DNA of 13,530 bases from Zetaproteobacteria bacterium. Lineage in GTDB: Bacteria; Pseudomonadota; Alphaproteobacteria; Micavibrionales; Micavibrionaceae. This document shows positions 1-13,530 of the stretch, piece after piece; the first letter of the stretch is position 1, and every line of letters starts with the position of its first letter. Below the pieces are notes generated by a model. It saw nothing but the letters and a program-made list of their open reading frames with translations, did not search any database and had not been told where the DNA came from. The position numbers were made by a program, and so were the translations under genes. The stretch lies in assembly GCA_002747015.1 (NCBI GenBank), contig NVXI01000013.1, forward strand, positions 30,213-43,742, read 5' to 3'.

Positions 1-741
1 AATAATGGCATCAGTATTATAATTTAAAAGTTTTTCCATGCGGACCTTGAAATCAACCTCTTTGTCTCCCCAGAAAAACCATTCAGTAAAAGCAATTTCG
101 ATTCCGGCCTTTTTAGATTCTCTAAGAAGGGCTTTGTGATTAGATCGTCCCCAACCTGTTTTTTCTAAAAAAAGAATAATGTTCTTATAGCCACGCTCTT
201 GTGCTTTCTGAATAAAAAATGGGGCAGCATCTGCATCACGTACAGATAAGCGAAACACGTAATTGGGATCATAACCATTATCAACGATCGGAGTTCCTGC
301 AGCCCAAGCCCCTAGATATGGAATTTTATGTTCATGGATTTTGGGTAATTGTTCCAATGCTACAGGCGTGTGTACTCCGCCAATAATTGCCAGTATATCT
401 TTATCCTTAGCAATTTGTTCAATATTAAAAATACCGCGAGCAGGGTTGGCGCGATGGTCAAAAATTTTTAGTCCCAATTTTATGCCATTGATACCACCAG
501 ATCCATTAATCTCTTTCAGTGCAAGCTCAATCCCGCGCTTTAAAGATTTGCCCGCATCTTTCGTATTACCTGACATATCCGCATCTAGCGCTAGATATTT
601 AATGGGCGCACTGGCGGCATCAGCTTGCGCGCTTGGTATCCATAGAAAACTTAAAATGAGACACAGAATAAAAACGTAAGATCGGAGCATCTCTATAGAA
701 ATTCTTCGCAACGTATTGATCATTAATATATTTCTAAACAT
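1..741 (-). CDS. Periplasmic substrate-binding protein of an ABC transporter (branched-chain amino acid type), C-terminus outside window
   Basis: The frame is open from 741 down to base 1 (247 codons) and continues past the window edge. The mature part begins APIKYLALDADMSGNT and continues with SLKRGIELALKEINGSGGI and an IIGGVHTPVALEQLPKIHE segment. This is the N-lobe pattern of type I periplasmic binding proteins (Peripla_BP_6, LivJ-like), which capture a small ligand in the periplasm for an ABC importer. A signal peptide is clear: MLRSYVFILCLILSFLWIPS then AQA and cleavage before D. Three in-frame ATGs are possible, at 741, 723 and 690. The 741 start has a GAGA upstream, but the 690 start gives the more typical 23-residue signal peptide. 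The gene is divergent from the tsx-like gene and has a sigma-54-type promoter at 790-805. The ligand cannot be told from the sequence. Confidence 0.8.
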   Translation of the reverse strand, partial: MFRNILMINTLRRISIEMLRSYVFILCLILSFLWIPSAQADAASAPIKYLALDADMSGNTKDAGKSLKRGIELALKEINGSGGINGIKLGLKIFDHRANPARGIFNIEQIAKDKDILAIIGGVHTPVALEQLPKIHEHKIPYLGAWAAGTPIVDNGYDPNYVFRLSVRDADAAPFFIQKAQERGYKNIILFLEKTGWGRSNHKALLRESKKAGIEIAFTEWFFWGDKEVDFKVRMEKLLNYNTDAII

Positions 742-789: not shown

Positions 790-805
790 AGCAAGAAGCA
801 TACCT
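790..805 (-). promoter_or_regulatory. Sigma-54 (-24/-12) type promoter for the substrate-binding protein
   Basis: Read on the minus strand the 16-mer is AGGTATGCTTCTTGCT. It has GG and GC separated by exactly ten bases and a TTGCT -12 box, matching TGGCAC-N5-TTGCW at the key positions. The predicted start of transcription is near 779, about 38 bases before the 741 ATG. It closely resembles the element upstream of the VanZ gene. A perfect 6-bp inverted repeat (ATTTTC/GAAAAT, 821-837) lies just upstream and might bind a regulator. Confidence 0.5.
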
Positions 806-864
806 GTGTATTATACGTGCATTTTCTTCTGGAAAATCAACGCAAAGTATATCATGGTAACGGC

Positions 865-1617
865 ATGATATATACGCGCCGTTCACTTTATTTTTTTTCT
901 TTATTATGTGGCATTTTTGTTCTTACTTTCCAGACCGCTTGGGCTGGAGATTTTGTTCAGTTTCATACCACTAATATTCAGGCATTGCGCGGGAACCATT
1001 ATGAATTGGGGCCTAAAAAGCGAACGATTATAACGTTGGAACATGCCAGTGGGTGGAGTTTTGGTGATTTATACACGTTCTGTGATCTCTCTCTAAAAGA
1101 AGGCGATAGTAATGATGATCTTTATTGTGAGTTTACGCCGCGCCTGTCATGGAATAAAATAACCGGTAGGGACATATCCTATGGCATTCTCAAGGATATA
1201 TTATTAGCAGCTCAAACTGAGCAAGGTGAAGACGGTTTGGCACGCTATAGCTATGGTCTCGGGATTGATCTTAACTTGCCTTATTTTAAATTTTTCAAGG
1301 TCAATAATTTTATTCGCAATAATCCAGACCGAGAGGATAAAACTTTTCAGATTTATACAGCATGGAATTTGCCGTTTGAAGCCGTAGGCGCAAAATTTGT
1401 TTTTGAAGGGTTTGCAGATGTTTTTGGTGAAGAGGGTGGTACAACTGTACCCAGTCAATTGACACAGCCGCGCCTTCTTTTAGATATCGGTGATCTGCTT
1501 TGGAACAAACAAGGACAGTTCTTTACTGGTGTAGAATACCAGTACTGGCATAATAAATTTGGCGTAGACGGGGTTACAGAATCCACTCTACAAGCCCAGA
1601 TTAAATGGGTTTTTTAA
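865..1617 (+). CDS. Tsx-family outer-membrane channel protein
   Basis: The 250-residue product starts with a signal peptide (MIYTRRSLYFFSLLCGIFVL, then TFQTAWA, cleavage before G28). It has no hydrophobic helices after that and ends in WVF, the terminal aromatic signature of outer-membrane beta-barrels. The segments ASGWSFGDLYTF, EFTPRLSWNKITGRDISYG, NNPDREDKTFQIYTAWNLPF and GVEYQYWHNKFGVDG fit the Tsx nucleoside-channel family and its DUF5020-like relatives, which pass small solutes across the outer membrane. The frame is open from a GTG at 817, but the ATG at 865 gives a normal signal peptide and is preferred, although its ribosome binding site is weak. The gene is divergent from the binding-protein gene, so the two could serve uptake of the same solute. 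A nucleoside substrate is not proven. Confidence 0.78.
   Translation: MIYTRRSLYFFSLLCGIFVLTFQTAWAGDFVQFHTTNIQALRGNHYELGPKKRTIITLEHASGWSFGDLYTFCDLSLKEGDSNDDLYCEFTPRLSWNKITGRDISYGILKDILLAAQTEQGEDGLARYSYGLGIDLNLPYFKFFKVNNFIRNNPDREDKTFQIYTAWNLPFEAVGAKFVFEGFADVFGEEGGTTVPSQLTQPRLLLDIGDLLWNKQGQFFTGVEYQYWHNKFGVDGVTESTLQAQIKWVF
1592..1615 (+). terminator. Possible Rho-independent terminator overlapping the end of the tsx-like gene
   Basis: AAGCCCA (1592-1598) can pair with TGGGTTT (1606-1612), with one G-T pair and a seven-base loop. A run of six T's (1610-1615) follows directly. The stem is short and lies inside the last codons, so this is a moderate call. It would separate tsx from the VanZ gene, which has its own promoter. 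Confidence 0.35.
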
Positions 1618-1646
1618 GCTCTCTATCACGAAAAACATGAAAATTC

Positions 1647-1662
1647 AGGTACGTTCTTTGCA
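1647..1662 (+). promoter_or_regulatory. Sigma-54 (-24/-12) type promoter for the VanZ-like gene
   Basis: The 16-mer AGGTACGTTCTTTGCA has the invariant GG-N10-GC spacing and a perfect TTTGCA -12 box. The -24 box is AGGTACG rather than TGGCACG. The predicted transcription start is near 1673, giving a very short leader that still contains the AAAAGGGAG ribosome binding site (1673-1681). No palindromic activator site like those of the two downstream promoters was found upstream. Confidence 0.5.
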
Positions 1663-1688
1663 TTCCTTCCTTAAAAGGGAGAAAAAAC

Positions 1689-2078
1689 ATGGATTCATTC
1701 TTAAAATGCGAGAAGTTGCCATTACAGAGAAAATATAAAACGTGGCTGCTTATAATAATCGGTGTTTTAGCCGGCGCTGCGTTCTTTGTTCCACCAGGCT
1801 TTTGCAAACCCTATATTGATCTTTGTAAAGAGTTCGAGTTTTTCATACATTTCGACAAAGTTTTTCATTCCATGTTTTTTACAGGCTTAGCGTTGAACAT
1901 ACCGTTAACTAGAAATATGTTTGGAAGAATCTTGGCCTTTATACTACTTATAGCATTGGGTTTCAGTATTGAGGTCGTACAATATTACATTCCTCACAGA
2001 AGCGCCAGTTTGTATGACCTAATCGCCAATATTATAGGCGTTCTTTTTGGCTTCATGTTGAGAGCTTTGTCTCGTTAA
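1689..2078 (+). CDS. VanZ-like small integral membrane protein
   Basis: The 129-residue protein has hydrophobic segments at roughly residues 19-37, 62-75, 78-97 and 111-127. It carries the VanZ-like motifs DKVFH (56-60) and IEVVQYYIPHRSASLYDLIAN (94-114), with E95, Q98, R104, D110 and N114 in their usual places. VanZ relatives are inner-membrane proteins. VanZ itself gives low-level teicoplanin resistance, but most homologues have unknown roles and many sit in exopolysaccharide or envelope gene clusters. The ATG has a strong AAAAGGGAG Shine-Dalgarno sequence. The gene stands alone behind its sigma-54-type promoter, 240 bp before the acetyltransferase gene, which has another promoter of the same class. 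Family call is confident; function unknown. Confidence 0.82.
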   Translation: MDSFLKCEKLPLQRKYKTWLLIIIGVLAGAAFFVPPGFCKPYIDLCKEFEFFIHFDKVFHSMFFTGLALNIPLTRNMFGRILAFILLIALGFSIEVVQYYIPHRSASLYDLIANIIGVLFGFMLRALSR

Positions 2079-2103
2079 ATTTTGTGTTACCCAAATCAGG
2101 ATT

Positions 2104-2129
2104 AAAGAGGCTCTTTTAAATTGAAAGAG
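2104..2129 (+). repeat. AAAGAG / CTCTTT / AAAGAG alternating hairpin sequence
   Basis: AAAGAG at 2104-2109 and at 2124-2129 flank CTCTTT at 2111-2116, so either copy could pair with the middle one. There is no T-run after it, so it is not a convincing terminator. It may be a protein binding site or chance in AT-rich DNA. Confidence 0.2.
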
Positions 2130-2177
2130 GAAATAATAGTCGATAAACGTACGCCACAGTATTTAGATATTCACGAA

Positions 2178-2204
2178 TTCTCATATTGTGAAAAATTATA
2201 AGAA
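2178..2204 (+). promoter_or_regulatory. Palindromic activator (enhancer) site A upstream of the acetyltransferase promoter
   Basis: TTCTCATA (2178-2185) and TATAAGAA (2197-2204) form an 8-bp inverted repeat with one mismatch. The centre contains ATTGTGAAAAATTAT. The centre of the site is about 65 bp upstream of the -24 GG, a normal distance for a sigma-54 activator site. A second copy matching at 24 of 27 positions lies at 3447-3473 before the aceB promoter. The identity of the binding protein is unknown. Confidence 0.5.
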
Positions 2205-2254
2205 TATCCGTTGTTATGTTTCTATATAATTGTTTATTTTCAATGTCTTATCTC

Positions 2255-2270
2255 TGGCGCACCCTTTGCA
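2255..2270 (+). promoter_or_regulatory. Sigma-54 (-24/-12) type promoter for the acetyltransferase gene
   Basis: TGGCGCACCCTTTGCA matches TGGCAC-N5-TTGCW at every position except A5, with GG and GC exactly ten bases apart. The predicted transcription start is near 2282, about 37 bases before the 2319 ATG. This is one of the two best matches in the window. Confidence 0.62.
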
Positions 2271-2318
2271 CCTTATTAAACTACAGAATATCAATGTCAT
2301 TAAAGGGAAGCCAAAGAG

Positions 2319-3071
2319 ATGAACCTTATCATGAGACTCAAAAACCGAATTAAAGTACGAGATACGGCACTGACAAAGTTTCTATATACGCTTGCCAAGG
2401 GGATTTTAACGTTCAACATGCCGCCGATCTGGTATATTCACAAACCGCTTCATATGGTGATTTCATCTGCCATTAATGTTGTTCTTTTCATTATTCGTAC
2501 ACTTTATTGGAAACCGGTTTTTATAATGCAACTGCGTAACAAACCGCGCCGGATGTGCTTTGAAGGTATTGGTATTCCTTTCCGCGTAGGGCCGCTGGAT
2601 ATTACAATTGGTGATGATTGTCGCATTGCTGCCCGTATTGCGCTGATTGGCCGGGCAGCAAGCAAGGAAACACCGCAACTTATCATTGGCGATAATGTTG
2701 GTATAGGGTGGCGCAGCGGCATTTATGTAGGAACCAAAATAATCATTGGCAATAATGTACGTATCGCTGGAGAGGGAAAACTCTCAGGCTATGCAGGACA
2801 TCCCCTAGATGCAAAAGAGCGAGCGGATGGTAAACCGGATATGGACTCTCAGGCTAAAGATATTATTTTGGAAGAGGATGTTTGGCTTGGAACTGGCGTT
2901 GTTGTTAATGGTGGTGTAACGATCGGAAAAGGCACAATTGTCGGTGCAGGCAGCGTTGTTACTAAAGACCTCCCTCCCAGTGTTTTGGCAGGCGGTGTGC
3001 CGGCGCGTGTTATTCGCAAGCTTGAACCTGAAGAGAAAGAATGTGAGACCATCCTGGAGGTTGTGTCTTGA
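2319..3071 (+). CDS. Hexapeptide-repeat (left-handed beta-helix) acyl/acetyltransferase
   Basis: The 250-residue protein has a hydrophobic N-terminal part (about 25-70). From about residue 90 it shows imperfect hexapeptide repeats typical of the left-handed beta-helix (ITIGDDCRI, LIIGDNVGIG, IIIGNNVRIAG). The C-terminal coil block includes DVWLGTGVVVNGGVTIGKGT and ends SVLAGGVPARVIRKL, as in the WcaF / maltose O-acetyltransferase group. The loop GYAGHPLDAKERADG carries H161, at the place of the family's catalytic histidine. Such enzymes move an acetyl group from acetyl-CoA to a sugar or similar acceptor, often in polysaccharide or glycolipid synthesis. It overlaps the next frame by four bases (TTGA), so the two were meant to be co-translated. 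An ATG four codons in (2331) is an alternative start. Acceptor unknown. Confidence 0.82.
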   Translation: MNLIMRLKNRIKVRDTALTKFLYTLAKGILTFNMPPIWYIHKPLHMVISSAINVVLFIIRTLYWKPVFIMQLRNKPRRMCFEGIGIPFRVGPLDITIGDDCRIAARIALIGRAASKETPQLIIGDNVGIGWRSGIYVGTKIIIGNNVRIAGEGKLSGYAGHPLDAKERADGKPDMDSQAKDIILEEDVWLGTGVVVNGGVTIGKGTIVGAGSVVTKDLPPSVLAGGVPARVIRKLEPEEKECETILEVVS

Positions 3072-3460
3072 TAGGTGCGCCAGTTATAATTTTGGGGGGG
3101 TATTCTGCAGCGCTTGATATTGCTCGGCGCCTTGTGCAGAAAGACATTGATATTTATATCCACGATCTTGCGCCTGATGCGATTGCTCTTTTATCCCGCT
3201 CGGCAGGTCCATTATTTGAGCATGAAGGTAAGCTTTATCGTCCGGCCCAAGACGCGAAGGAACGCTACGGTTTTGGCCTTGATATCAATGAAGTATTACA
3301 GCTTACTCCTAAAAAATACTGTGAACGTATTATCGAAAGGATCATACCGGATTCCGACATATATGACATTTATGGTATCCATACGTTTAGCAGTGCCGGT
3401 GGCCTGAGTTGTGTCGATTTTATTCAGGGTGTAAGTTTGAAATTTATTCTCAAATTGTGA
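3068..3460 (+). pseudogene. Probable gene remnant: ATP-grasp-like N-terminus joined to a GINT1_N-like C-terminal fragment
   Basis: Translation can start at TTG 3068 behind a strong GGAGG, overlapping the acetyltransferase stop, and gives 130 residues. Residues 1-34 (APVIILGGYSAALDIARRL onward) resemble the first strand-loop-helix of ATP-grasp ligases or another nucleotide-binding fold, which would normally be followed by several hundred residues. From about residue 38 the sequence changes to SAGPLFEHEGKLYRPAQDA, then YGFGLDINEVLQLTPKKY and IYGIHTFSSAGGLSCVD. I recognise this as the end of the sugar-binding-like domain found at the N-terminus of GINT1-type glycosyltransferase proteins. The last codons (KFILKL, stop) are encoded inside the palindromic activator site at 3447-3473, so the frame simply runs into regulatory DNA. 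A run of seven G lies near its start (3094-3100). Both family matches are from memory and moderate; an intact small fusion protein is the alternative. Confidence 0.5.
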
Positions 3461-3473
3461 AAAATTATGAGAT
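3447..3473 (+). promoter_or_regulatory. Palindromic activator (enhancer) site B upstream of the aceB operon
   Basis: It shares TTCTCA, the 15-base core ATTGTGAAAAATTAT and the AGA of the right arm with site A, identical at 24 of 27 positions. TCTCA (3448-3452) and TGAGA (3468-3472) form the arms. It lies about 119 bp upstream of the -24 GG of the aceB promoter. A further inverted TTGTGAAAA (as TTTTCACAA, 3510-3518) lies between the two and may be a secondary half-site. Confidence 0.5.
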
Positions 3474-3577
3474 TTTTCTCTTCTTATGTGCAGGGCACTT
3501 TAAGATTTGTTTTCACAAAAATACATTAAGTATCTGAAAAGAATAAACTTTATTAGTTATAATAATAATTTTTCTTC

Positions 3578-3593
3578 TGGCATTTCCTTTGCA
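3578..3593 (+). promoter_or_regulatory. Sigma-54 (-24/-12) type promoter for the aceB-aceA-glmM operon
   Basis: TGGCATTTCCTTTGCA has a TGGCA -24 box, ten-base GG-GC spacing and a perfect TTTGCA -12 box. The predicted transcription start is near 3605, 28 bases before the aceB ATG. An AAAGGA ribosome binding site lies at 3619-3624. The region between 3474 and 3577 is very AT-rich, as is common between a sigma-54 promoter and its enhancer, where the DNA must bend. Confidence 0.62.
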
Positions 3594-3632: not shown

Positions 3633-5324
3633 ATGTATACTCAAATTAACCTTCAGAAAAATATAACGGCGCCAATGCCGATTATGAACCATGTTGCCAA
3701 GAAAGAAACATGTGAATTGCTCGTGCAGGAAACTTCTCAAACACAGAAGGTTTTTAGCAAAGAGGCTTTAGCATTTCTTTTTGATCTGGAACAAAAATTT
3801 GGCCCTACGCGCAAAGCGTTGCTTGAGACCAGAAAAACGCGTCAACGACACTATGATGATGGCGAGTTTCCAGATTTTAATTCCGAAACAGCACATATCC
3901 GCGAAAACAACTGGACCATTGACCCTGTGCCCGAAATTTTACAAGATCGCCGTGTAGAAATTACCGGTCCAGTTGATCGTAAAATGATGATTAATGCCTT
4001 GAATAGCGGCGCCAAAGTTTTTATGGGTGATTTTGAGGATGCCACAACTCCTACATTTGAGAATATATTAAACGGCCAAATCAATGTGCAGGACTACGCA
4101 AGCGGCACACTTGAATATACCGATATCAAAACTGGAAAAAATTATCAGGTTAATAATAAGCCTGCCTTAATGATGATCCGACCGCGCGGCTTGCATCTGG
4201 AGGAAGCACATCTTGAAATTGATGGTGCGCCATTATCGGCCAGCTTGGTTGATTTCGGACTGCATATTTTTCACACCGGAAAAACTCTGGCTGAAAAGGG
4301 GCTTGGGCCATTCTATTATCTTCCAAAATTGGAAAGTCATATGGAGGCACGGCTCTGGAATGATATTTTTGTCTATGCGCAAGACTGCTTAGGCATCCCA
4401 CAAGGAACGGTCAAAGCAACCGTCCTGATTGAAACACTGCCTGCTGCTTTCGAAATGGATGAAATCCTATATGAGCTCCGTCATCATGCAGCTGGTTTGA
4501 ATTGTGGACGTTGGGATTATATTTTCAGCTATATAAAAACCTTGCGCAATCATCCTGAATTTATTCTACCCAACCGTGCCTATGTCACGATGGATAAGGA
4601 ATTTCTAAAAGCCTATAGTGTGCTTCTTATTAAGACATGCCATAAGCGCCATGCGCATGCAATGGGCGGTATGGCGGCGCAAATTCCGATTAAAAATGAT
4701 GAATTGGCCAATGCCAAAGCCATTCAAAAAGTTCGCGCTGACAAAGTTCGTGAGGCCGAGTTATATCATGATGGTACATGGGTTTCGCACCCGGCGCTTA
4801 TCAAACCCGCTATGGACGTTTTCAACATGTCGATGCCGCGCGCCAATAATTTACATAGAGAGTGTAGAGAGAAAATGCCAACGGCATTGGATATGCTTTG
4901 CCCGCATGATGGGAATATTAGCGAACACGGTGTGCGTACAAATGTGGCTGTGGCTCTGGAATATATCACGGCTTGGTATGGTGGACGCGGCGCAGTACCA
5001 ATTAACAACTTAATGGAAGATGCTGCTACAGCAGAAATTTGCCGGGCTCAGCTTTGGCAATGGTTAAGGTTTAATTGTCCTTTAACGGCTGATGAAAACC
5101 ATTATGTGGATAAATCGCGCGTTATTACTATGACTGCATCATTTTTCAAATGTGTTTTACAGGACGAATTTGAAAAACTGAAATGTTTGATTGATGATAA
5201 TCAAGTACAGCAGGATAATCTGGAAGCCGCAAAAAATACCCTTGAAGAAACTGTTTTATCGGATGAGTTCCAGGATTTTCTTACTCTTCCAGCCTACTCT
5301 TGTTTAACGAAACGAAGCGTTTAG
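3633..5324 (+). CDS. aceB: Malate synthase A
   Basis: The product condenses glyoxylate with acetyl-CoA to malate, the second step of the glyoxylate shunt, in the cytoplasm. The 563-residue length is slightly above the usual 530-550 of the A isoform and far from the roughly 720 of malate synthase G. Diagnostic segments are GDFEDATTPT (132-141), RPRGLHLEEAH (183 onward), PKLESHMEARLWND, the family signature GLNCGRWDYIFS (288-299) and NNLMEDAATAEICRAQLWQW. D463 in LMEDA is the expected catalytic base and R183 the expected glyoxylate-binding arginine. The start ATG follows AAAGGA by eight bases. It is the first gene of an operon with aceA, 27 bp downstream, and is preceded by a sigma-54-type promoter and a palindromic upstream site. 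Confidence 0.96.
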   Translation: MYTQINLQKNITAPMPIMNHVAKKETCELLVQETSQTQKVFSKEALAFLFDLEQKFGPTRKALLETRKTRQRHYDDGEFPDFNSETAHIRENNWTIDPVPEILQDRRVEITGPVDRKMMINALNSGAKVFMGDFEDATTPTFENILNGQINVQDYASGTLEYTDIKTGKNYQVNNKPALMMIRPRGLHLEEAHLEIDGAPLSASLVDFGLHIFHTGKTLAEKGLGPFYYLPKLESHMEARLWNDIFVYAQDCLGIPQGTVKATVLIETLPAAFEMDEILYELRHHAAGLNCGRWDYIFSYIKTLRNHPEFILPNRAYVTMDKEFLKAYSVLLIKTCHKRHAHAMGGMAAQIPIKNDELANAKAIQKVRADKVREAELYHDGTWVSHPALIKPAMDVFNMSMPRANNLHRECREKMPTALDMLCPHDGNISEHGVRTNVAVALEYITAWYGGRGAVPINNLMEDAATAEICRAQLWQWLRFNCPLTADENHYVDKSRVITMTASFFKCVLQDEFEKLKCLIDDNQVQQDNLEAAKNTLEETVLSDEFQDFLTLPAYSCLTKRSV

Positions 5325-5351: not shown

Positions 5352-7067
5352 ATGTGCAAAAAACAATCGTATAAACAAATTTTTCAAGATGTGCAAACCC
5401 GTTATCAGGGGACGCATACACCAGGTGGTATCGCAGTCGAACATATAACACAGCTTAAGATACAAAATACGTATGAAACACATCTGGACATTGCCAAAAC
5501 TATGGCAAAGGTTATGCGTAAAGATATGGCAGCGTATGATAAGGATTCATCACAATTCACTCAATCACTGGGGTGTTGGTCCGGTTTTCATGCCCAGCAA
5601 ATGATTAAATCCGTTAAACGCATGAAGGGCACATCCAAGGGTACCTATGTGTATTTAAGTGGCTGGATGGTTGCCGGTCTACGTAACAGTTTTGGTCATC
5701 TTCCAGATCAAAGCATGCATGAGAAAACGGCGGTCACTGATCTTATTCATGAAATTTACACCTCACTACGTCAAGCCGATGAGGTTGCCCTTAATGACTT
5801 GTTCAATGCGCTTAAAATCGCGCGTGAAACTGGCGACGAGCCACGTGAAATTGAAGAAATTATCATGAAAATCGATAGCTTTGAATCTCATGTCGTACCA
5901 ATTATTGCCGATATTGATGCTGGATTTGGGAATGAGCATGCTACCTATTTGCTTGCTAAAGAACTTATCAAAGCTGGTGCTTGTTGTATTCAAATTGAAA
6001 ATCAGGTTTCCGATGCCAAACAATGCGGTCATCAGGACGGCAAAGTTACTGTGCCGCGTGAAGAGTTTATCGAGAAGCTCCGCGCTGTACGTATGGCCTT
6101 TGAAGAACTAGGCGTTGATGATGGTGTTATTGTAGCGCGCACAGATTCGCTTGGTGCAGGCCTTACACAAAAAATTCCAGTTTCTACAATGAGAGGTGAT
6201 TTAGCCTATGAATATATTAAATGGCTGGAGACTGAGGATATTACGCAGGAAAATCCATTGCAAGACGGCGAAGTGGCTCTGCAATTTAATGGCAAGCTTG
6301 TTCGTCCAGTTCGTATGCCTAGTGGCCTTTATAAATTTAAGGAAGGATCAGGCCGTGACCGTGTGGTTGAGGACTGTATTGCCAGCCTGACACTTGGCGG
6401 TGCAGATCTCCTCTGGATTGAAACAGCGACGCCAGATGTTAAGACGATTGGCAGTATGGTTTACGACATCAGGAAAGTCGTACCAGATGCCAAGCTGACC
6501 TATAATAATTCTCCTTCCTTTAACTGGACATTGAAATTACGTCAACAAATTCGCGCTGAATGGGCGGAAAGTGGTGAACATATGGTGCATTTCTATCCTC
6601 AGGACATTGGCCTTATGGATGAAAAATTTGATGATGATCCTTTGGGACAGGAAGCTGATTGCCGACTGCGTAATTTCCAGGCTGATATAGCAAGAGAGGC
6701 TGGTGTGTTCCACAATCTTATTACGCTGCCGACTTTTCATCTGACAGCCAAAGCGATGGATGATTTGTCTCGTGGGTATTTCGGAGAGGATAAAATGTTG
6801 GCTTATGTGAATAATGTGCAGCGCGAAGAAATTCGCGCAGGCGTCAGCGCCGTCAAGCATCAGCACGAAGTTGGTTCCAATATTGGCGACAGTTTCAAGG
6901 AAATGGTTGCCGGAGCACGCGCCCTTAAAGCTGGAGGAGAGCATAACACAATGAATCAATTTGAGATGAAAAAGCCTAAACCTGAAACATCTGATTCTGA
7001 TGAGATTACCTTTATAGATCATTCGTCTCAAACGCTCAACGGTCACGTAATAGCTGCGGCAGAATAG
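5352..7067 (+). CDS. aceA: Isocitrate lyase
   Basis: The enzyme splits isocitrate into succinate and glyoxylate, the first step of the glyoxylate shunt needed for growth on acetate or fatty acids. The 571 residues include SQFTQSLGCWSGFHAQQM, VYLSGWMVAGLRN, PIIADIDAGFGN, IQIENQVSDAKQCGHQDGK with catalytic Cys225 in KQCGH (223-227), VIVARTDSLGAG, YNNSPSFNWTL and HLITLPTFH. The KQCGHQDGK form and extra length place it with the longer, Pseudomonas aeruginosa-like isocitrate lyases rather than the shorter E. coli type (KKCGH). About 40 residues at the C-terminus, after NTMNQFEMKK, are low-complexity and acidic. AAGGAG precedes the ATG. No isocitrate dehydrogenase kinase gene (aceK) follows, so flux control must come from expression or elsewhere. 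Confidence 0.97.
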   Translation: MCKKQSYKQIFQDVQTRYQGTHTPGGIAVEHITQLKIQNTYETHLDIAKTMAKVMRKDMAAYDKDSSQFTQSLGCWSGFHAQQMIKSVKRMKGTSKGTYVYLSGWMVAGLRNSFGHLPDQSMHEKTAVTDLIHEIYTSLRQADEVALNDLFNALKIARETGDEPREIEEIIMKIDSFESHVVPIIADIDAGFGNEHATYLLAKELIKAGACCIQIENQVSDAKQCGHQDGKVTVPREEFIEKLRAVRMAFEELGVDDGVIVARTDSLGAGLTQKIPVSTMRGDLAYEYIKWLETEDITQENPLQDGEVALQFNGKLVRPVRMPSGLYKFKEGSGRDRVVEDCIASLTLGGADLLWIETATPDVKTIGSMVYDIRKVVPDAKLTYNNSPSFNWTLKLRQQIRAEWAESGEHMVHFYPQDIGLMDEKFDDDPLGQEADCRLRNFQADIAREAGVFHNLITLPTFHLTAKAMDDLSRGYFGEDKMLAYVNNVQREEIRAGVSAVKHQHEVGSNIGDSFKEMVAGARALKAGGEHNTMNQFEMKKPKPETSDSDEITFIDHSSQTLNGHVIAAAE

Positions 7068-7113: not shown

Positions 7114-8481
7114 ATGAGTAATGAAAAGCAATATTTTAAAACCGACGGTATTCGCGGTAAAGCGAACCAGTTTCCGATGACAGCAGAAATCGCCATGAAA
7201 GTTGCTATGGCCACAGCCTATGTTATTAGGCAGAAACACAATAAATGCGAACGCACAAACCGCGTTGTTATCGGCAAGGATACACGACTTTCTGGCTATA
7301 TGTTTGAACAAGCCATTACCGCCGGATTTCTATCTATGGGGATGGATGTAATTCAGGTCGGGCCAATTCCTACGCCTGGCATTGCTATGCTAACCCGCTC
7401 TATGCGTGCGGACTTAGGCATAATGATCACTGCTTCTCACAACAAATTCCAAGACAATGGTTTGAAGCTTTTTGGAGCAGACGGGTTTAAGCTATGCAAC
7501 GAAACGCAAAAGGATATAGAAGCTTTGATAGAAACGGATTTTACTGATCATCTATCGGCACCTGAAGACTGCGGTAAGGCTAAACGCTTAGACGATGCGT
7601 TGGGACGTTATGTTGAGCATGTTAAATCCAGCTTCCCAAGAGGTAAGACTCTTGCTGGCATGAAAATTGTTCTCGATTGTGCCAATGGTGCGGCTTATAA
7701 GGTTGCACCGCAAATATTCTGGGAACTGGAAGCAGAAATTATTACAATTGGCACACAGCCCAATGGCCGTAATATCAATCAGGATTGTGGTGCGACTGAT
7801 CTTAAAGCCTTGCAATGTAAAGTCATTCAAGAAGACGCCGATATAGGCATTGCACTGGATGGTGATGCGGATCGCCTGATTGTGGTTGATGAAAGGGGGC
7901 AGATTTTAGACGGTGATCAACTCACAGCGTCTCTTGCGCTGGCGCTAAAACAATCTGGGACATTGGGCGATAATACTGTGGTCGCTACGGTCATGTCCAA
8001 TATGGGTATGGAAGCCGCGTTGGTGGCTCAAGGCATTGAAGTAGTGCGCACTGCTGTTGGTGATCGGGCCATTATAGAGGAAATGCGCAAGAGTGGTTTT
8101 TCTCTTGGTGGTGAGCAATCCGGTCATATTATTATGAGTAAATACAGCACGACTGGCGATGGTATCTTGGCAGCCTTACAAATTTTAGCGATTCTTAAGG
8201 AAACAGACAAGCCAGCAAGCGATGTACTAAATGTTTTCACCCCTTATCCGCAGATCCTTAAAAATGTTCAGGGTGTTACGGGGAAGACCCTGAGAGAAAA
8301 GGCAGTACAAAACGCAATCCATGCAGCACAGGATAATCTTGCAGATCAGGGACGCATTCTTGTGCGTCCTTCCGGTACTGAACCGCTCATTCGTGTCATG
8401 GTCGAAGGTCAGGACCTATCCCTTATTGGACAAATTGCCAGTGATTTATGTCAGGTTATTGAGGGTAGTGCTCATGCCTAA
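7114..8481 (+). CDS. glmM: Phosphoglucosamine mutase
   Basis: It converts glucosamine-6-phosphate to glucosamine-1-phosphate on the way to UDP-N-acetylglucosamine, the precursor of peptidoglycan and lipopolysaccharide. At 455 residues it has the normal family length. All four active-site elements of the alpha-D-phosphohexomutase family are present: ITASHN with phospho-acceptor Ser108, the metal-binding DGDADR (249-254), the sugar-specificity loop GEQSGH (333-338) and the phosphate-binding RPSGTEP (418-424). The N-terminal FKTDGIRGKAN and the SHNKFQDNGLKLFG segment favour GlmM over phosphomannomutase. AGGAAGAG precedes the ATG. It follows aceA by 46 bp on the same strand with no visible terminator, so it is probably co-transcribed with the glyoxylate genes. 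Its usual neighbours in proteobacteria are folP or ftsH, so this context is odd. Confidence 0.93.
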   Translation: MSNEKQYFKTDGIRGKANQFPMTAEIAMKVAMATAYVIRQKHNKCERTNRVVIGKDTRLSGYMFEQAITAGFLSMGMDVIQVGPIPTPGIAMLTRSMRADLGIMITASHNKFQDNGLKLFGADGFKLCNETQKDIEALIETDFTDHLSAPEDCGKAKRLDDALGRYVEHVKSSFPRGKTLAGMKIVLDCANGAAYKVAPQIFWELEAEIITIGTQPNGRNINQDCGATDLKALQCKVIQEDADIGIALDGDADRLIVVDERGQILDGDQLTASLALALKQSGTLGDNTVVATVMSNMGMEAALVAQGIEVVRTAVGDRAIIEEMRKSGFSLGGEQSGHIIMSKYSTTGDGILAALQILAILKETDKPASDVLNVFTPYPQILKNVQGVTGKTLREKAVQNAIHAAQDNLADQGRILVRPSGTEPLIRVMVEGQDLSLIGQIASDLCQVIEGSAHA

Positions 8482-8990: not shown

Positions 8991-9617
8991 ATGACCAAAC
9001 CAACAAAAACCATATTACCTCTATTAGCACTAGGCACATTAACTGCGTGCGTATCAACAAGTTGGAATGCCACTAACCATTACGATGATTTTACGGATAT
9101 CAAAAGTTGTCGTGTAGAGCAGGGGACGCAGGCCGGACGGGATTTTGCACGTGGATTTACGGGCATTTATTTCACCCAACAGTTCTATGCTGAAAACCAT
9201 AATGGCGAAATTCGCGTAGGTGTGCGTACAGAGCCGCCATTACCAATTGGCGGTGATATTCAGATTAAGGTCGGGGCAAGGCTCTATACTTTAACATCAC
9301 AAGATACGCCGATTGATGTCGCGCCCACAGGATTCACGAACACAGATGCGATGGAAAAAACTATGGGTAAAGAATATGCGGATTCCATAAAGGCCATGAC
9401 GAAAAACATTCAACAATTAAGCTCCCCATACCGTGCCTATACAGGCAAGAAAGCCGAAGCATTGCTGCGTGATATTACCGACACATCAGGCGAAATCAAG
9501 TTCCGCGTGATTGGTGTTAACAGCGTTACATCCGGTACAGGGGCCTTTACAGTAGGCGAGGATTTTAAACGCGCATTGCAGGCCTGTAATATCAAACTTC
9601 AAGGATTATCCGAATGA
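8991..9617 (+). CDS. Putative lipoprotein of unknown function
   Basis: The 208-residue protein begins MTKPTKTILPLLALGTLTAC, a classic lipoprotein signal with the lipobox LTAC. Cys20 would be lipidated and the protein exported to the periplasmic face of a membrane. The mature part has two further cysteines, in KSCRVEQ and QACNIKL, that could form a disulfide. It has a central beta-rich stretch (GEIRVGVRTEPPLPIGGDIQ) and no transmembrane helix after the signal. I do not recognise a family. GAAGGGAG precedes the ATG, and the stop overlaps the start of the GIY-YIG gene (ATGA), so the two are translationally coupled. A lipoprotein in such an island could be a surface-modifying or phage-exclusion factor, but this is only a guess. 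The terminator just upstream means expression depends on read-through or on a promoter within 8964-8990. Confidence 0.75.
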   Translation: MTKPTKTILPLLALGTLTACVSTSWNATNHYDDFTDIKSCRVEQGTQAGRDFARGFTGIYFTQQFYAENHNGEIRVGVRTEPPLPIGGDIQIKVGARLYTLTSQDTPIDVAPTGFTNTDAMEKTMGKEYADSIKAMTKNIQQLSSPYRAYTGKKAEALLRDITDTSGEIKFRVIGVNSVTSGTGAFTVGEDFKRALQACNIKLQGLSE

Positions 9618-10420
9618 TTACACTTCAAACAATATTAAGTTCCCAAAGCCCTATACTGGATAATGCCAAAGTTAAACTGGTGCGACATAAAGACAGTCGT
9701 GAGCAATATCGTGATGTGATTAAAGATAAACATGCACTAATTGCGTATCAAAAAGAACAGGGCAAAGATGTTTTTAAGGGCTGTGACTATATTATTTCTT
9801 TTATAGGTCTGGAAATGAAGCGTTCTTTATTCTTCGGTGTGTTCAAGGTGAATGGAGTAAAAACCAGTAATCGTAAATATTACTATGACCTCGAATATGT
9901 TTCCGAATTTGATGATCTGGTTGATCGATTGATAATTAATTGGGGCGCGGCTGCAAGGAATTGGCATCAATGGTACGATATGCAACCCAAGGAAGTGGTG
10001 GAAATATTGCCACAGGGCTATATCGGCAGCTTCCCCGGTCTGTTGAATTTTGTTCTTGAATTTGACGAACTTAAAAGATTAACCAATAATCCCACTGCCA
10101 ACTATGAATGGCGAAATCAACTCTCTGCCGTAAACGGTATTTATTTAATTTTGGACAGCAAGACAGGCCAACAATATGTCGGCAGCGCAAACGGCAAAGG
10201 TGGGGTTTGGCAACGCTGGAGCGAATATGCCGCTAATTACACTGGTGGCAATAAAGAGCTAATCGCGTTTATCAAAAAAGACCCGCATTATTACCGTCAT
10301 TTCCGATATTCAGTTTTACAAACACTGCCAAGTAACATCACACAACGTGAAATCGTCGCTATTGAGAATCTGTATAAAGATAAACTCGGTTCGAAAGCCC
10401 ATGGTCTGAACGTGAACTAA
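9614..10420 (+). CDS. GIY-YIG nuclease family protein
   Basis: The 268-residue protein has a C-terminal GIY-YIG domain from about residue 172. The first motif is GIYLI (175-179), the second YVG (188-190), the conserved arginine is R201 in WQRWSEY and the metal-binding glutamate is E251 in AIENLYKDKL. All catalytic positions are therefore present. The N-terminal 150 residues, with FFGVFKVNG, YYYDLEYVSEFDDLVDRLII and WHQWYDM, look like a separate domain that may select the target. GIY-YIG proteins cut DNA in homing, repair, restriction or transposition. It overlaps the lipoprotein gene by four bases and has AAGGA upstream. The target, and whether it acts for the island or against rivals, cannot be told. 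Confidence 0.85.
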   Translation: MITLQTILSSQSPILDNAKVKLVRHKDSREQYRDVIKDKHALIAYQKEQGKDVFKGCDYIISFIGLEMKRSLFFGVFKVNGVKTSNRKYYYDLEYVSEFDDLVDRLIINWGAAARNWHQWYDMQPKEVVEILPQGYIGSFPGLLNFVLEFDELKRLTNNPTANYEWRNQLSAVNGIYLILDSKTGQQYVGSANGKGGVWQRWSEYAANYTGGNKELIAFIKKDPHYYRHFRYSVLQTLPSNITQREIVAIENLYKDKLGSKAHGLNVN

Positions 10421-10460
10421 CATAGCCGATTTGACAGCCACAAAAGTTTCATGTAACTGT

Positions 10461-10652
10461 GAGAGTGCTTAGGAGAGAGAGTACCTTTAACAAGGTCAGC
10501 CCTAATGCTGGTGGCAGTCCAGGACTAAGCCGGTGAAAACCTAAACGTGGTGGTTTTCTTAATGCTAACGTAGCACCTTAATTGATAAGGTCTAACCATA
10601 CAGCACCGACATTTAAGCAATCGTTTTTAACGAGCGCTGAATGTCGGTTTTT
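10461..10652 (+). ncRNA. Candidate multi-hairpin RNA or leader upstream of the methyltransferase
   Basis: The 290-bp gap before the methyltransferase has no gene but dense pairing. GTGCT and TAG (10465-10472) close onto CTA and AGCAC (10565-10576). Inside are ACCTT-TAAC-AAGGT (10483-10496), CAGC-6-GCTG (10497-10510) and GAAAACC-10-GGTTTTC (10535-10558). After it come ACCTTA-ATTGA-TAAGGT (10575-10591) and a terminator at 10605-10652. An alternative pairing, GCTTAG (10467-10472) with CTAAGC (10525-10530), is also possible, as expected for a switch. It fits a small RNA of about 190 nt ending at its own terminator, or a regulatory leader. I do not recognise its family. Strand is inferred from the terminator. 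Confidence 0.42.
10605..10652 (+). terminator. Rho-independent terminator before the methyltransferase gene
   Basis: ACCGACATT (10605-10613) pairs perfectly with AATGTCGGT (10640-10648), followed by a run of T's to 10652. The loop is long (26 bases). Its right arm can also pair with CCGACAT at 10690-10696, which would act as an antiterminator. Confidence 0.65.
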
Positions 10653-10689
10653 GTTTGGCCAATTTTCATTCATTTTTCGATATTCAGCT

Positions 10690-10717
10690 CCGACATATAA
10701 GGAGAAAAGAAATGTCG
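10690..10717 (+). promoter_or_regulatory. Possible translation-control hairpin at the methyltransferase start
   Basis: CGACAT (10691-10696) can pair with ATGTCG (10712-10717), which is the start codon and second codon. The AAGGAG ribosome binding site would then sit in the loop. The same sequence pair is used in the terminator just upstream, so the four copies could exchange partners. Confidence 0.35.
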
Positions 10718-12007
10718 AGACATAACCAACTACAGATGGAATATCTGAACCCGCGTGAATTGAAGGACCCTGTCCGTCAACTACGCAAACCAACTGATCA
10801 ACAAATACCTAAAACCAAGAGAATTATTGATGAAGGCGGGATACTGCCGATCATTATTGATACGAATAACTACATCATCGCAGGTTGGCATATGGCTGAA
10901 GCCGCCAGACAGATGAAAATAGAATCTGTACCTGTCATTCGTTTTGATCACCTTACTAAAGATCAAGTCCGTACCCTGCGCATTGCCTATGACCGTGTTG
11001 CCGAAGAGGCGGAATGGGATAAGGAAGTGCTTGCTGCAGAATTTTTAGAACTTCAAATTCTTGTACCGGACTTAACCATTACAGGGTTTGAGTTAGATGA
11101 AATCAATCTGGTTCTTGATATACTGCCGGACACCGATCCAAATGACATTGCACCGGCGGTGGCAGAAGGATCTGCTATAACGCAGTTAGGTGACCTTTAT
11201 ATAATGGGTGATCATAAGTTGCTCTGTGCGGATTCATTGGAGGAAGATAGCTACAAATCCTTACTTGGTGATGAGGTCGTGCAGATGTGCTTCGTCGATA
11301 TGCCCTACAACGTAAAAATTGATGGGCACGTTGGTAATTCCGGCGATACAAAACACCGTGAATTTGCGATGGCCAGCGGTGAGATGAGCGAGGATGAGTT
11401 TGCTCGTTTTCTTGAAACAGCTCATGAGAATATCGCTGCGCATCTTCAAGGTGGCGGGATAACGTTTTCGTGTATGGACTGGCGTCATATGGGGGAAATG
11501 CTGGGCGCTGGTGCACATGCAAAAATGCATCTCATTAATATGTGCGTGTGGGCTAAGGATAATGGTGGGATGGGTAGTCTCTATCGCTCTCAGCATGAAC
11601 TAGTCTTTGTATTTAAGAAGGGCAAAGCCAAACACATTAACAATGTGTCTCTAGGCTCAAACGGCCGCTATCGCACCAATATTTGGCAATACCCCGGCGT
11701 CAACTCCTTCGGGGGTGGACGCATGGATGAGCTAAAGCTCCATCCAACGGTCAAACCAACTGCCATGGTTGCCGACGCGATTAAGGATTGTTCAAAACGC
11801 AGTGGGATCATTCTTGATCCGTTCGGTGGCTCCGGTACAACGCTGATTGCAGCTGAAAATACAGGGCGTAAGGCCCGTTTAATTGAACTCGACCCTCATT
11901 ATTGCGATGTCACAATTCGTCGCTGGCAAGAGCTTACAGGGCTGAACTCTGTTCACGCTGAAACAGGCAAAACTTTCAATGAAACACTAACAGATGGAGA
12001 AAAATAA
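10712..12007 (+). CDS. ParB-domain DNA methyltransferase (N6-adenine / N4-cytosine type, beta order)
   Basis: The 431-residue protein starts with a ParB/Srx-like domain (about residues 8-85) that includes GILPIIIDTNNYIIAGWHMA and VPVIRF. It ends with a methyltransferase domain. The catalytic motif IV is DMPYNV (196-201) and comes before the SAM-binding motif in DPFGGSGTT (369-377), which is the beta-class order. HPTVKPTAMVADAI precedes the latter. It would methylate an amino group of adenine or cytosine in a short DNA site using S-adenosylmethionine. No restriction gene is adjacent, so it is probably an orphan methyltransferase protecting the element or changing regulation. The start at 10712 is chosen over the upstream 10655 because AAGGAG lies just before it. 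The usual DPPY or DLPY is DMPY here. Its stop overlaps the next start by one base. Confidence 0.9.
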   Translation: MSRHNQLQMEYLNPRELKDPVRQLRKPTDQQIPKTKRIIDEGGILPIIIDTNNYIIAGWHMAEAARQMKIESVPVIRFDHLTKDQVRTLRIAYDRVAEEAEWDKEVLAAEFLELQILVPDLTITGFELDEINLVLDILPDTDPNDIAPAVAEGSAITQLGDLYIMGDHKLLCADSLEEDSYKSLLGDEVVQMCFVDMPYNVKIDGHVGNSGDTKHREFAMASGEMSEDEFARFLETAHENIAAHLQGGGITFSCMDWRHMGEMLGAGAHAKMHLINMCVWAKDNGGMGSLYRSQHELVFVFKKGKAKHINNVSLGSNGRYRTNIWQYPGVNSFGGGRMDELKLHPTVKPTAMVADAIKDCSKRSGIILDPFGGSGTTLIAAENTGRKARLIELDPHYCDVTIRRWQELTGLNSVHAETGKTFNETLTDGEK

Positions 12008-12867
12008 TGAGTGATGACAACAACAAAAAAGACTATGACGTTGGCTACGGCAAGCCACCTAAAAGCACGCGCTTCGGTGCCACAGATGGAAACCCTGGAA
12101 ATACAAAAGGGCGTCCGCCGGGGCGTAATGTTTTGGAGTTTGATCGCCTTTCCGAAGAGGCCTTATGGCACTGCTTCCACGAATCCGGGCAAAAACCGGT
12201 GTCTATCCGTGAAGACGGAAAAGAACTTGTTATCCCGCTAATTATGGCTATTGCCAAGGGTATGGCTACAGATGCGGCAAACGGAGATAAACACGCCAGA
12301 AGGGATTATTTGCGCTATCTTGAAAAAGCCGTCAAAGGTAAAGACAAGGTTCTTTCTGAAGTGCATTCAATTTTGGCTGATTACCGCGAACGCAAGCTTT
12401 CTGCCATGCAGAATCCGGGGTCATTGGAATGTGTTAATACGTTCTATGAGTGGTTTATGATCAAAAAAAACCTTCGTGCAATGGATGGTGAAGATCGTTG
12501 GCCTTATGAAGATGGCGAACCTGTCACGGATGAAGACTGGTTAGTCTTTATTGAAAAATACGAGTTGTTGAAAGAGAACTCCGATTATCAAGTGTCATGG
12601 CCGCTGAAATACGCCGATGATCTTGAAGCTGAGCGTATTGAAGGTATGACCCGCAAAGAGCTCGCGCAAGAGCGTCTGAGAGTATTTAAACATAGAAAGG
12701 AAATGCGCGAAAAAGAAGGCGCTCTCAAATGGCCGTTCCTAATAGAAGAACCGGTTGATGGGGAAGACTGGGAGAATTTAGAGCAATATATCCAGGACAT
12801 TTTAGATGGCAAAGAAAGTTCCGCACCATGGCCTCCATCTTATTGGGATGACGATCCAGAAGAGTAG
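12007..12867 (+). CDS. DUF5681 domain-containing protein
   Basis: Residues 10-40 (VGYGKPPKSTRFGATDGNPG, then NTKGRPPGR) match the basic, glycine-rich start of DUF5681 proteins, which are common in alphaproteobacterial phages and islands next to ParB-methyltransferases and whose role is unknown. The following helical region ends near residue 115 with RRDYLRYLEKAVKGKDK. The C-terminal half is acidic and tryptophan-rich and contains a motif twice: WPYEDGEPVTDEDW (165-178) and WPFLIEEPVDGEDW (242-255), each followed by a short helix-like stretch. Two shorter WP motifs (SWPLKY, PWPPSYWDDDPEE) are also present. A charged stretch (about 205-238) rich in E, R and K lies between the repeats. It is coupled to the methyltransferase gene (TAATG). 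DNA binding by the basic N-terminus is plausible but inferred. Confidence 0.8.
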   Translation: MSDDNNKKDYDVGYGKPPKSTRFGATDGNPGNTKGRPPGRNVLEFDRLSEEALWHCFHESGQKPVSIREDGKELVIPLIMAIAKGMATDAANGDKHARRDYLRYLEKAVKGKDKVLSEVHSILADYRERKLSAMQNPGSLECVNTFYEWFMIKKNLRAMDGEDRWPYEDGEPVTDEDWLVFIEKYELLKENSDYQVSWPLKYADDLEAERIEGMTRKELAQERLRVFKHRKEMREKEGALKWPFLIEEPVDGEDWENLEQYIQDILDGKESSAPWPPSYWDDDPEE

Positions 12868-12902
12868 TCTTTCGACTGGACTTCCATCGCACAGCAAGCG
12901 TG

Positions 12903-12936
12903 TATGGCCCTAACGTTAATAAACGAAAGGGCCATA
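12903..12936 (+). promoter_or_regulatory. Hairpin covering the ribosome binding site of the DUF2924 gene
   Basis: TATGGCCCT (12903-12911) pairs with AGGGCCATA (12928-12936). The right arm contains the AAAGGG that serves as Shine-Dalgarno for the TTG start at 12941. It could be a terminator of the methyltransferase-DUF5681 unit, but the following TTCTTT is a poor T-run, so a translation-control hairpin is equally likely. Confidence 0.45.
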
Positions 12937-12940
12937 TTCT

Positions 12941-13336
12941 TTGCAGGAATTATCAATCAATGAGCTTAGGCAGCGCTGGACCGAAGCATGGGGGCAACAG
13001 CCACATATTCGGGTCGGGCGGGTGATGCTGGAGAAAAGTCTTGCTTATAAGCTTCAGGGAAATTTGAAGTCAGAACAGCAGGCGCGGCTGGATCAACTGA
13101 TTAAAGAGTATAAGCGCAATCCAGCCTGCTTTGACGAACGTGTGGGTGCACTAAAGCCCGGAACGCGGTTGGTGCGCATATATAACGGCAAAAAGCATAA
13201 TGTTCTGGTGAAGAGTGATGGGTTTGAATATCGAGATCAGACATACAGTAGCCTTTCAAAAATCGCTAATGACATCACTGGATCACGATGGAATGGCTGG
13301 CTGTTTTTCGGTATAAAGAAAGCGGGGACATCATGA
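12941..13336 (+). CDS. DUF2924 family protein
   Basis: The 131-residue protein has the DUF2924 layout: [20 protein letters not shown] near the start, [14 protein letters not shown] (28-40), then [20 protein letters not shown] and a closing [24 protein letters not shown]. The last block resembles small DNA-binding modules of phage recombination regions. The family is unknown in function but is nearly always encoded just before a large serine recombinase, and that is the case here, with a four-base ATGA overlap. It is therefore probably an accessory factor for integration or excision. No ATG suits the N-terminus. The TTG at 12941, nine bases after AAAGGG, is chosen; an internal ATG (residue 29) would remove conserved sequence. 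Confidence 0.82.
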
Positions 13337-13530
13337 AAAAGATTTGCGCGATATATACCCGTAAATCTACAGACGAGCGCCTGGATATGGAATTCAATAC
13401 TCTGGATGCGCAGCGTGAATCTTGCGAGGCCTATATTATTAGCCAGAAGTCGGAAGGGTGGAGGCCATCTCCAACGCAATACGATGATGGCGGGTTTTCG
13501 GGGGGAACACTTGATCGGCCAGCGCTTAAC
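13333..13530 (+). CDS. Large serine recombinase (site-specific integrase), C-terminus outside window
   Basis: Only the first 66 residues are present. [18 protein letters not shown] contains the resolvase-family active site YTRKS with catalytic Ser12. [12 protein letters not shown] and the [17 protein letters not shown] block are the usual next motifs of the catalytic domain. Large serine recombinases join attachment sites on phage or island DNA and the chromosome through a covalent phosphoserine link. The ATG overlaps the DUF2924 stop (ATGA), so the two proteins are made together. The recombinase and zinc-ribbon domains should lie in the following 400-500 codons. Confidence 0.92.

Follow-up and report, generated by a model that had tools for sequence, protein, structure and literature searches.

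A 27-base-pair enhancer-like palindrome that may place a glyoxylate-shunt operon with glmM in an exopolysaccharide regulon

Control of the bacterial exterior is a described role of sigma-54 (PMC3162934). In the PrsK/PrsR PEP-CTERM system, as outlined by Haft (2006; PMC1569441), a sigma-54 site and an upstream activator motif precede exopolysaccharide-associated genes, with a mean spacer of 62.8 nucleotides (nt; range 32–92), and a PEP-CTERM gene in Aquincola is reported to be RpoN-dependent (PMC9850573). The window analysed here, the whole 13,530-base stretch (G+C 42.9%) of contig NVXI01000013.1 from an uncultured Micavibrionaceae bacterium, carries two copies of a 27-base-pair near-palindrome, each upstream of a sigma-54 promoter-like site; one precedes a hexapeptide-repeat acyltransferase gene, and the other the glyoxylate-shunt genes for malate synthase A (aceB) and isocitrate lyase (aceA), which are followed by the phosphoglucosamine mutase gene glmM. 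We raise the possibility, held tentatively, that the glyoxylate-shunt operon with glmM is a member of an exopolysaccharide regulon, through a LuxO/PrsR-like activator and this new enhancer.

The locus resembles the PrsK/PrsR system in having a sigma-54 site with an upstream motif, the spacers from palindrome end to TGGC being 51 nt (site at 2255) and 105 nt (site at 3578) against the mean of 62.8 nt described there, and in the occurrence, in relatives, of a receiver–AAA+–Fis regulator near polysaccharide genes. It differs in the motif itself, since the PrsR motif, by its description in PMC1569441, is 17 nt long and ends in TTTACA, whereas a TCTCA/TGAGA palindrome is found here; in its targets, which are an acyltransferase and aceBA/glmM rather than PEP-CTERM genes; and in the candidate regulators of the relatives G474 and G223, whose scores of 378.7 and 347.2 miss the PrsR cut-off of 502.6 (TIGR02915). 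By this comparison the arrangement matches PrsR enhancers in kind and differs from them in motif and targets. The best NCBIfam match for both candidate regulators is LuxO, the Vibrio quorum-sensing sigma-54 response regulator, with scores (610.5 in G474 and 562.1 in G223) that miss its cut-off of 800 (NF041946); a further difference from LuxO is that polysaccharide genes adjoin the candidate regulators here. The glyoxylate operon of Paracoccus denitrificans likewise holds malate synthase and isocitrate lyase together, and the RamB activator is bound upstream of its malate synthase gene; however, RamB belongs to the ScfR family, and the parts of that report considered here show no sigma-54-type enhancer (PMC10370305).

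Sigma-54 promoter-like sites and a shared palindrome

The sites, the palindrome copies and the genes adjoining them are as follows.

790–805, minus strand: weak GG-N10-GC match of the binding protein gene, AGGTATGCTTCTTGCT; rank 6, score 11.4
1647–1662, plus strand: sigma-54 promoter-like site of the VanZ-like gene, AGGTACGTTCTTTGCA; rank 2, score 15.2
2177–2203, plus strand: enhancer-like near-palindrome 1, ATTCTCATATTGTGAAAAATTATAAGA, from a repeat search; upstream of the acyltransferase promoter
2255–2270, plus strand: sigma-54 promoter-like site of the acyltransferase gene, TGGCGCACCCTTTGCA; rank 1, score 17.3
2319–3071, plus strand: hexapeptide-repeat acyltransferase, by profile matches; orthologue identity 72% in G474 and 58% in G223
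3068–3460, plus strand: open reading frame (ORF) 130, partial GINT1_N-like (PF24793, 24.7 bits, under the cut-off of 27)
3446–3472, plus strand: enhancer-like near-palindrome 2, ATTCTCAAATTGTGAAAAATTATGAGA; upstream of the aceB promoter and overlapping the ORF130 stop codon
3578–3593, plus strand: sigma-54 promoter-like site of malate synthase/isocitrate lyase, TGGCATTTCCTTTGCA; rank 3, score 14.8
3633–5324, plus strand: malate synthase A, aceB (TIGR01344, 725.9 bits against a cut-off of 594.5)
5352–7067, plus strand: isocitrate lyase of the PRK06498 type, aceA (NF005074, 872.8 bits against a cut-off of 446)
7114–8481, plus strand: phosphoglucosamine mutase, glmM (TIGR01455, 594.6 bits against a cut-off of 447.55)

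The four GG-N10-GC sequences that the earlier note had read as sigma-54 promoters are present, each 26–48 nt from a plausible start (741 on the minus strand, 1689, 2319 and 3633). When both strands of the window were scored with a sigma-54 weight matrix, the three plus-strand sites took the top three places, all within 100 nt 5′ of a gene start, as are 4.7% of the positions in the window; at least three sites scoring at least 14.7 were obtained in 0 of 300 shuffles. These three combine the GG/GC spacing with a TTGCW-like −12 box. The minus-strand site at 790 has the right letters but does not score above chance level, and it does not stand out because seven sites scoring at least 11 were seen in the window against 3.15 expected. 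The bare GG-N8-TTGCW rule is weak, giving nine window matches against a shuffle mean of 4.71, with nine reached in 4 of 200 shuffles.

The palindrome, which is the main feature of the locus, was absent from the earlier note's account. Its two copies are identical at 25 of 27 positions and share the pattern TTCTCAWAWT-N7-AWTWTGAGAA, and each has 19 of 20 palindrome positions matched, where the maximum among 300 shuffles was 17. Measured from the start of TTCTCA, the sigma-54 sites at 2255 and 3578 follow after 77 and 131 nt, respectively, which gives both promoters, as far as sequence can indicate, the upstream enhancer expected of the sigma-54 class; the palindrome itself resembles the enhancer of a sigma-54 activator. 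No copy occurs within 220 nt upstream of the VanZ site at 1647, and the site at 790 is likewise without one. One sigma-54 regulon comprising all four sites, as had been proposed, is for these reasons very unlikely: the VanZ site has the second-best score in the window, but neither it nor the 790 site is accompanied by the palindrome, and the latter is at chance level. The part of that proposal which survives is the pair at 2255 and 3578, with 1647 as a possible addition (the VanZ gene may be sigma-54 dependent, to judge from its site). The associated link between sigma-54 control and envelope or polysaccharide functions is similarly supported for the acyltransferase and aceBA, and more strongly than in the earlier note because both have the same 27-base-pair palindrome; it is unsupported for the binding protein. 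The reach of the second promoter would extend to glmM, since gaps of 27 nt (aceB–aceA) and 46 nt (aceA–glmM) suggest that aceBA and glmM probably form one operon.

Counterparts of the two promoters in relatives

Of 142 genomes of the order, only two have the acyltransferase at E ≤ 1e-20. The G474 orthologue has different upstream genes (two electron-transfer-flavoprotein-like ORFs, judged by eye), together with a sigma-54 site, TGGCGTGACATTTGCA, that is the counterpart of window 2255, and a palindrome, TTCTCAAATTATTACGAATTTTGAGAA, that has 0 mismatches to the pattern and places TTCTCA 86 nt before that site. The acyltransferase promoter is thus conserved in G474 despite the changed gene neighbourhood. 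A sample of the class yielded acyltransferase matches in 10 of 385 genomes, G474 included; among the nine more distant ones, an upstream sigma-54-like site scoring 14.0–15.4 is present in three (G223, G289 at 15.4, and G176), and G047 has a weaker site (12.2, with TTGAA at −12).

The counterpart of the aceB promoter in G474 stands in front of a different gene. No malate synthase A match was found in this genome at E 1e-60, and its glmM (contig C47; locus L164, 775–956), the product of which is 73% identical to that of the window, has a promoter homologous to the window aceB promoter, with a relative of the palindrome (17 of 20 positions) and a sigma-54 site, TGGCACTAATCATGCA. The TTCTCA-to-TGGC spacing is 131 nt in both promoters, TGCATTATGTAATTA lies directly behind the −12 box in both, and their alignment score of 153 was equalled in none of 500 shuffles (mean 79.7, standard deviation 8.5). 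A placement of this palindrome inside glmM was considered and found to be wrong; it lies upstream of the gene. This alignment suggests that insertion or loss of aceBA probably left homologous promoters in front of glmM in one lineage and of aceBA–glmM in the other. GlmM itself places the window among Alphaproteobacteria: the best identity to the window protein among the 385 sampled genomes is 62%, and G474 belongs to the same order as the genomes giving the best matches.

At up to three mismatches, the G474 genome has the palindrome at three places, against 0 in the control: the acyltransferase, glmM, and one place within an ORF without a sigma-54 site. A degenerate pattern gave 157 matches in the same genome against 57 for the reversed control. 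For the follow-up, 56 of 100 listed places were scored and 20 regions were chosen among the better-scoring places without keeping strictly to the top 20; the pattern alone is a poor guide, because 18 of the 20 inspected sites lie in open frames of at least 483 nt, the exceptions being L199 and L206. The former (L199 1021–1036; G474 C1:54020) is a strong sigma-54 site scoring 17.3 that lies 60 nt upstream of an ORF resembling a flagellar hook-associated gene, and is presumably a target of FlbD.

These counts bear on whether the window sites are chance matches. The bare GG-N10-GC rule matches often, as the intragenic G474 sites illustrate; nevertheless, the position and score of the window sites, their common palindrome and their conservation in G474 make chance extremely unlikely. 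A second alternative is that an ordinary sigma-70 regulator uses the palindrome as its operator, the sigma-54 matches being incidental. RamB, which can govern alphaproteobacterial glyoxylate operons at paired boxes as described in PMC10370305, offers a precedent, and a sigma-70-like match (10 of 12) occurs at 3534–3563; however, sigma-70-like matches in the window are at shuffle level (11 against 9.0, standard deviation 2.9) and the palindrome accompanies sigma-54 sites in G474 too, and we regard this alternative as quite unlikely.

The palindrome was also considered, and rejected, as an element used across the order. With up to two mismatches it occurs in 97 of 142 genomes, but it is not general in the order, because the counts in many genomes are near the reversed-pattern control. 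A palindrome/sigma-54 pair at L148 (score 11.0, no TTGCW) looks like chance and was likewise set aside.

The gene neighbourhood was compared through lists of relatives, comprising 120 of 5,603 acyltransferase relatives and 120 of 7,999 scored malate synthase relatives. Among those listed, five contigs besides the 43,742-base contig on which the window's proteins appear (638,682, 114,631, 29,433, 9,400 and 4,409 bases), matched on size and source, appear in both lists, which strongly suggests that the acyltransferase–aceB neighbourhood recurs elsewhere. ORF130, which shares 4 nt with the acyltransferase gene at the stop codon of the latter, has a single relative besides itself, P0122, on a contig of 339,219 bases, equal in length to that of the acyltransferase relative P0018. 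P0122 terminates in KFILKL, as does ORF130 across palindrome 2; this shared ending hints that palindrome 2 is kept at the P0122 locus. ORF130 could be what is left of a larger protein of the GINT1_N type.

A candidate activator and its proposed role

The relative G474 encodes RpoN and three strong sigma-54 activators, of which one is FlbD-like and the others have AtoC and LuxO, respectively, as their closest match. The LuxO-like regulator (PF00158 at 231.8 bits, with the GAFTGA loop read in its translation) shares its locus with genes for a receiver protein, a SpoIIE-type phosphatase and an SLBB polysaccharide-export protein. In this regulator locus, the short motif TCTCAWWTT lies upstream of two sigma-54 sites, at 83 nt for a STAS-domain gene and at 73 nt for the receiver gene. 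G479 has a regulator 77% identical to that of G474, and its receiver gene shows the same arrangement, with TCTCAWWTT at 75 nt; the neighbourhood of this regulator contains no obvious polysaccharide locus. Within the motif search set (255 sequences, 2.05 megabases of fetched loci, overlapping copies included), TCTCAWWTT occurs 99 times; it is followed at 60–140 nt by a sigma-54 site scoring at least 13 in six distinct elements against ~0.4 expected, figures that overstate the surprise, as motif and distance range were set after the sites were seen. Those six, which correspond to 6 of 172 distinct sigma-54 sites scoring at least 13, are all in the window, G474 or G479. The gene that follows the acyltransferase in G223 encodes a regulator sharing 48% identity with the LuxO-like protein of G474. 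Around it lie genes for a polysaccharide flippase, a glycosyltransferase and a ligase/polymerase of the Wzy type, and a PAS histidine kinase is encoded upstream. Two secreted proteins adjoining LuxO-like regulators (L175 1373–2251 and L173 6228–7187) have, by eye, PEP-CTERM-like C-termini and gave no NCBIfam match.

Another sigma-54 activator, for example an NtrC- or AtoC-like sensor of nitrogen or carbon, could bind the palindrome with no involvement of the exopolysaccharide regulator. The two further strong activators of G474, FlbD-like and AtoC-closest, would be available for this, and a carbon sensor would suit a glyoxylate operon; we nonetheless judge it unlikely, given that TCTCAWWTT precedes the sigma-54 sites flanking the LuxO-like gene in both G474 and G479, and that the G223 acyltransferase adjoins a regulator related to the LuxO-like protein. 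The sites, the common palindrome, the G474 counterparts and the TCTCAWWTT elements near the regulator gene are all directly legible in the DNA. Taken with the loci above, they point to a LuxO/PrsR-like activator that probably drives the acyltransferase and aceBA(–glmM) promoters through the shared palindrome. We infer the presence of such a regulator in the window's own genome, as well as the inclusion of glmM in the regulon.

Under this proposal, the acyltransferase gene and the aceBA(–glmM) operon would each be transcribed from a sigma-54 promoter served by an enhancer upstream, with the same sigma-54 activator binding TTCTCAWAWT-N7-AWTWTGAGAA at both. The DNA in between, which measures 77 nt at one promoter and 131 nt at the other when counted from TTCTCA to TGGC, would loop, and the activator would hydrolyse adenosine triphosphate and open the promoter. 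The likeliest such activator would be a LuxO/PrsR-like response regulator, with receiver, AAA+ and Fis-type domains, that belongs to an exopolysaccharide system. Acetate assimilation (AceB and AceA) and the supply of amino sugars (GlmM) would then be expected to rise together with polysaccharide acylation.

Several observations weigh against a LuxO/PrsR-like activator acting at both promoters. The evidence for RpoN and the regulator comes from G474 rather than from the window's own genome, and the TCTCAWWTT elements by the regulator genes of G474 and G479 are half-sites or short forms of the motif, not the 27-base-pair palindrome. The sigma-54 weight matrix was drawn up ad hoc for this analysis, and the motif and distance range of the TCTCAWWTT composites were set after the sites were seen. 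Among nine more distant genomes with regulator relatives, no such composite was found at the regulator loci, and the binding motif therefore seems to be lineage-specific; the G223 acyltransferase promoter is also without TCTCAWWTT. Twenty malate synthase loci of the order were taken and 18 evaluated, leaving out L185 (match near a contig end) and L195 (a fragment), and 0 of the 18 had a palindrome of at least 15/20 or a sigma-54 site of at least 13 within 300 nt. At G474 glmM, the −12 box is poor, reading ATGCA instead of TTGCA. Finally, glmM is normally essential, and sole control by sigma-54 would be unusual.

If the proposal is correct, acetate assimilation and the supply of amino sugars would be coupled to polysaccharide acylation in an alphaproteobacterial lineage about which little is known, and an enhancer common to the glyoxylate shunt and the gene of a probable surface-polysaccharide acyltransferase would directly link matrix building to the acetyl-CoA economy. 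To go by the title of one study (Hagins 2010), RpoN reportedly influences isocitrate lyase in Pseudomonas aeruginosa, with a link to the glyoxylate shunt. No report of such coupling between polysaccharide and the glyoxylate shunt was found among the titles and abstract beginnings listed in searches of the open-licence literature. The motif TTCTCAWAWT-N7-AWTWTGAGAA offers a concrete, testable binding motif.

The remainder of the window

The gene order across the window is binding protein (minus strand), Tsx-like channel, VanZ-like protein, hexapeptide acyltransferase, ORF130, malate synthase A, isocitrate lyase, glmM and a mobile-element-like end. Searches of the window with Rfam and ARAGORN yielded 0 matches and 0 genes, respectively. 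The three genes at the 5′ end are as follows.

1–741, minus strand: periplasmic binding protein (PF13458), incomplete in the window
817–1617, divergent from the binding protein: Tsx-type channel protein (PF03502)
1689–2078, plus strand: VanZ-like membrane protein (PF04892)

A tblastn search of the fetched loci at 1e-6 matched none of these three proteins, which left no counterparts against which to compare their promoters. On the 3′ side of glmM, positions 8991–13530 have the appearance of a mobile element. This part includes a GIY-YIG protein (PF01541, barely above the cut-off), a ParB/DNA-methylase-like protein (10655–12007) and, from 13334 onwards, what looks by eye like the beginning of a large serine recombinase.

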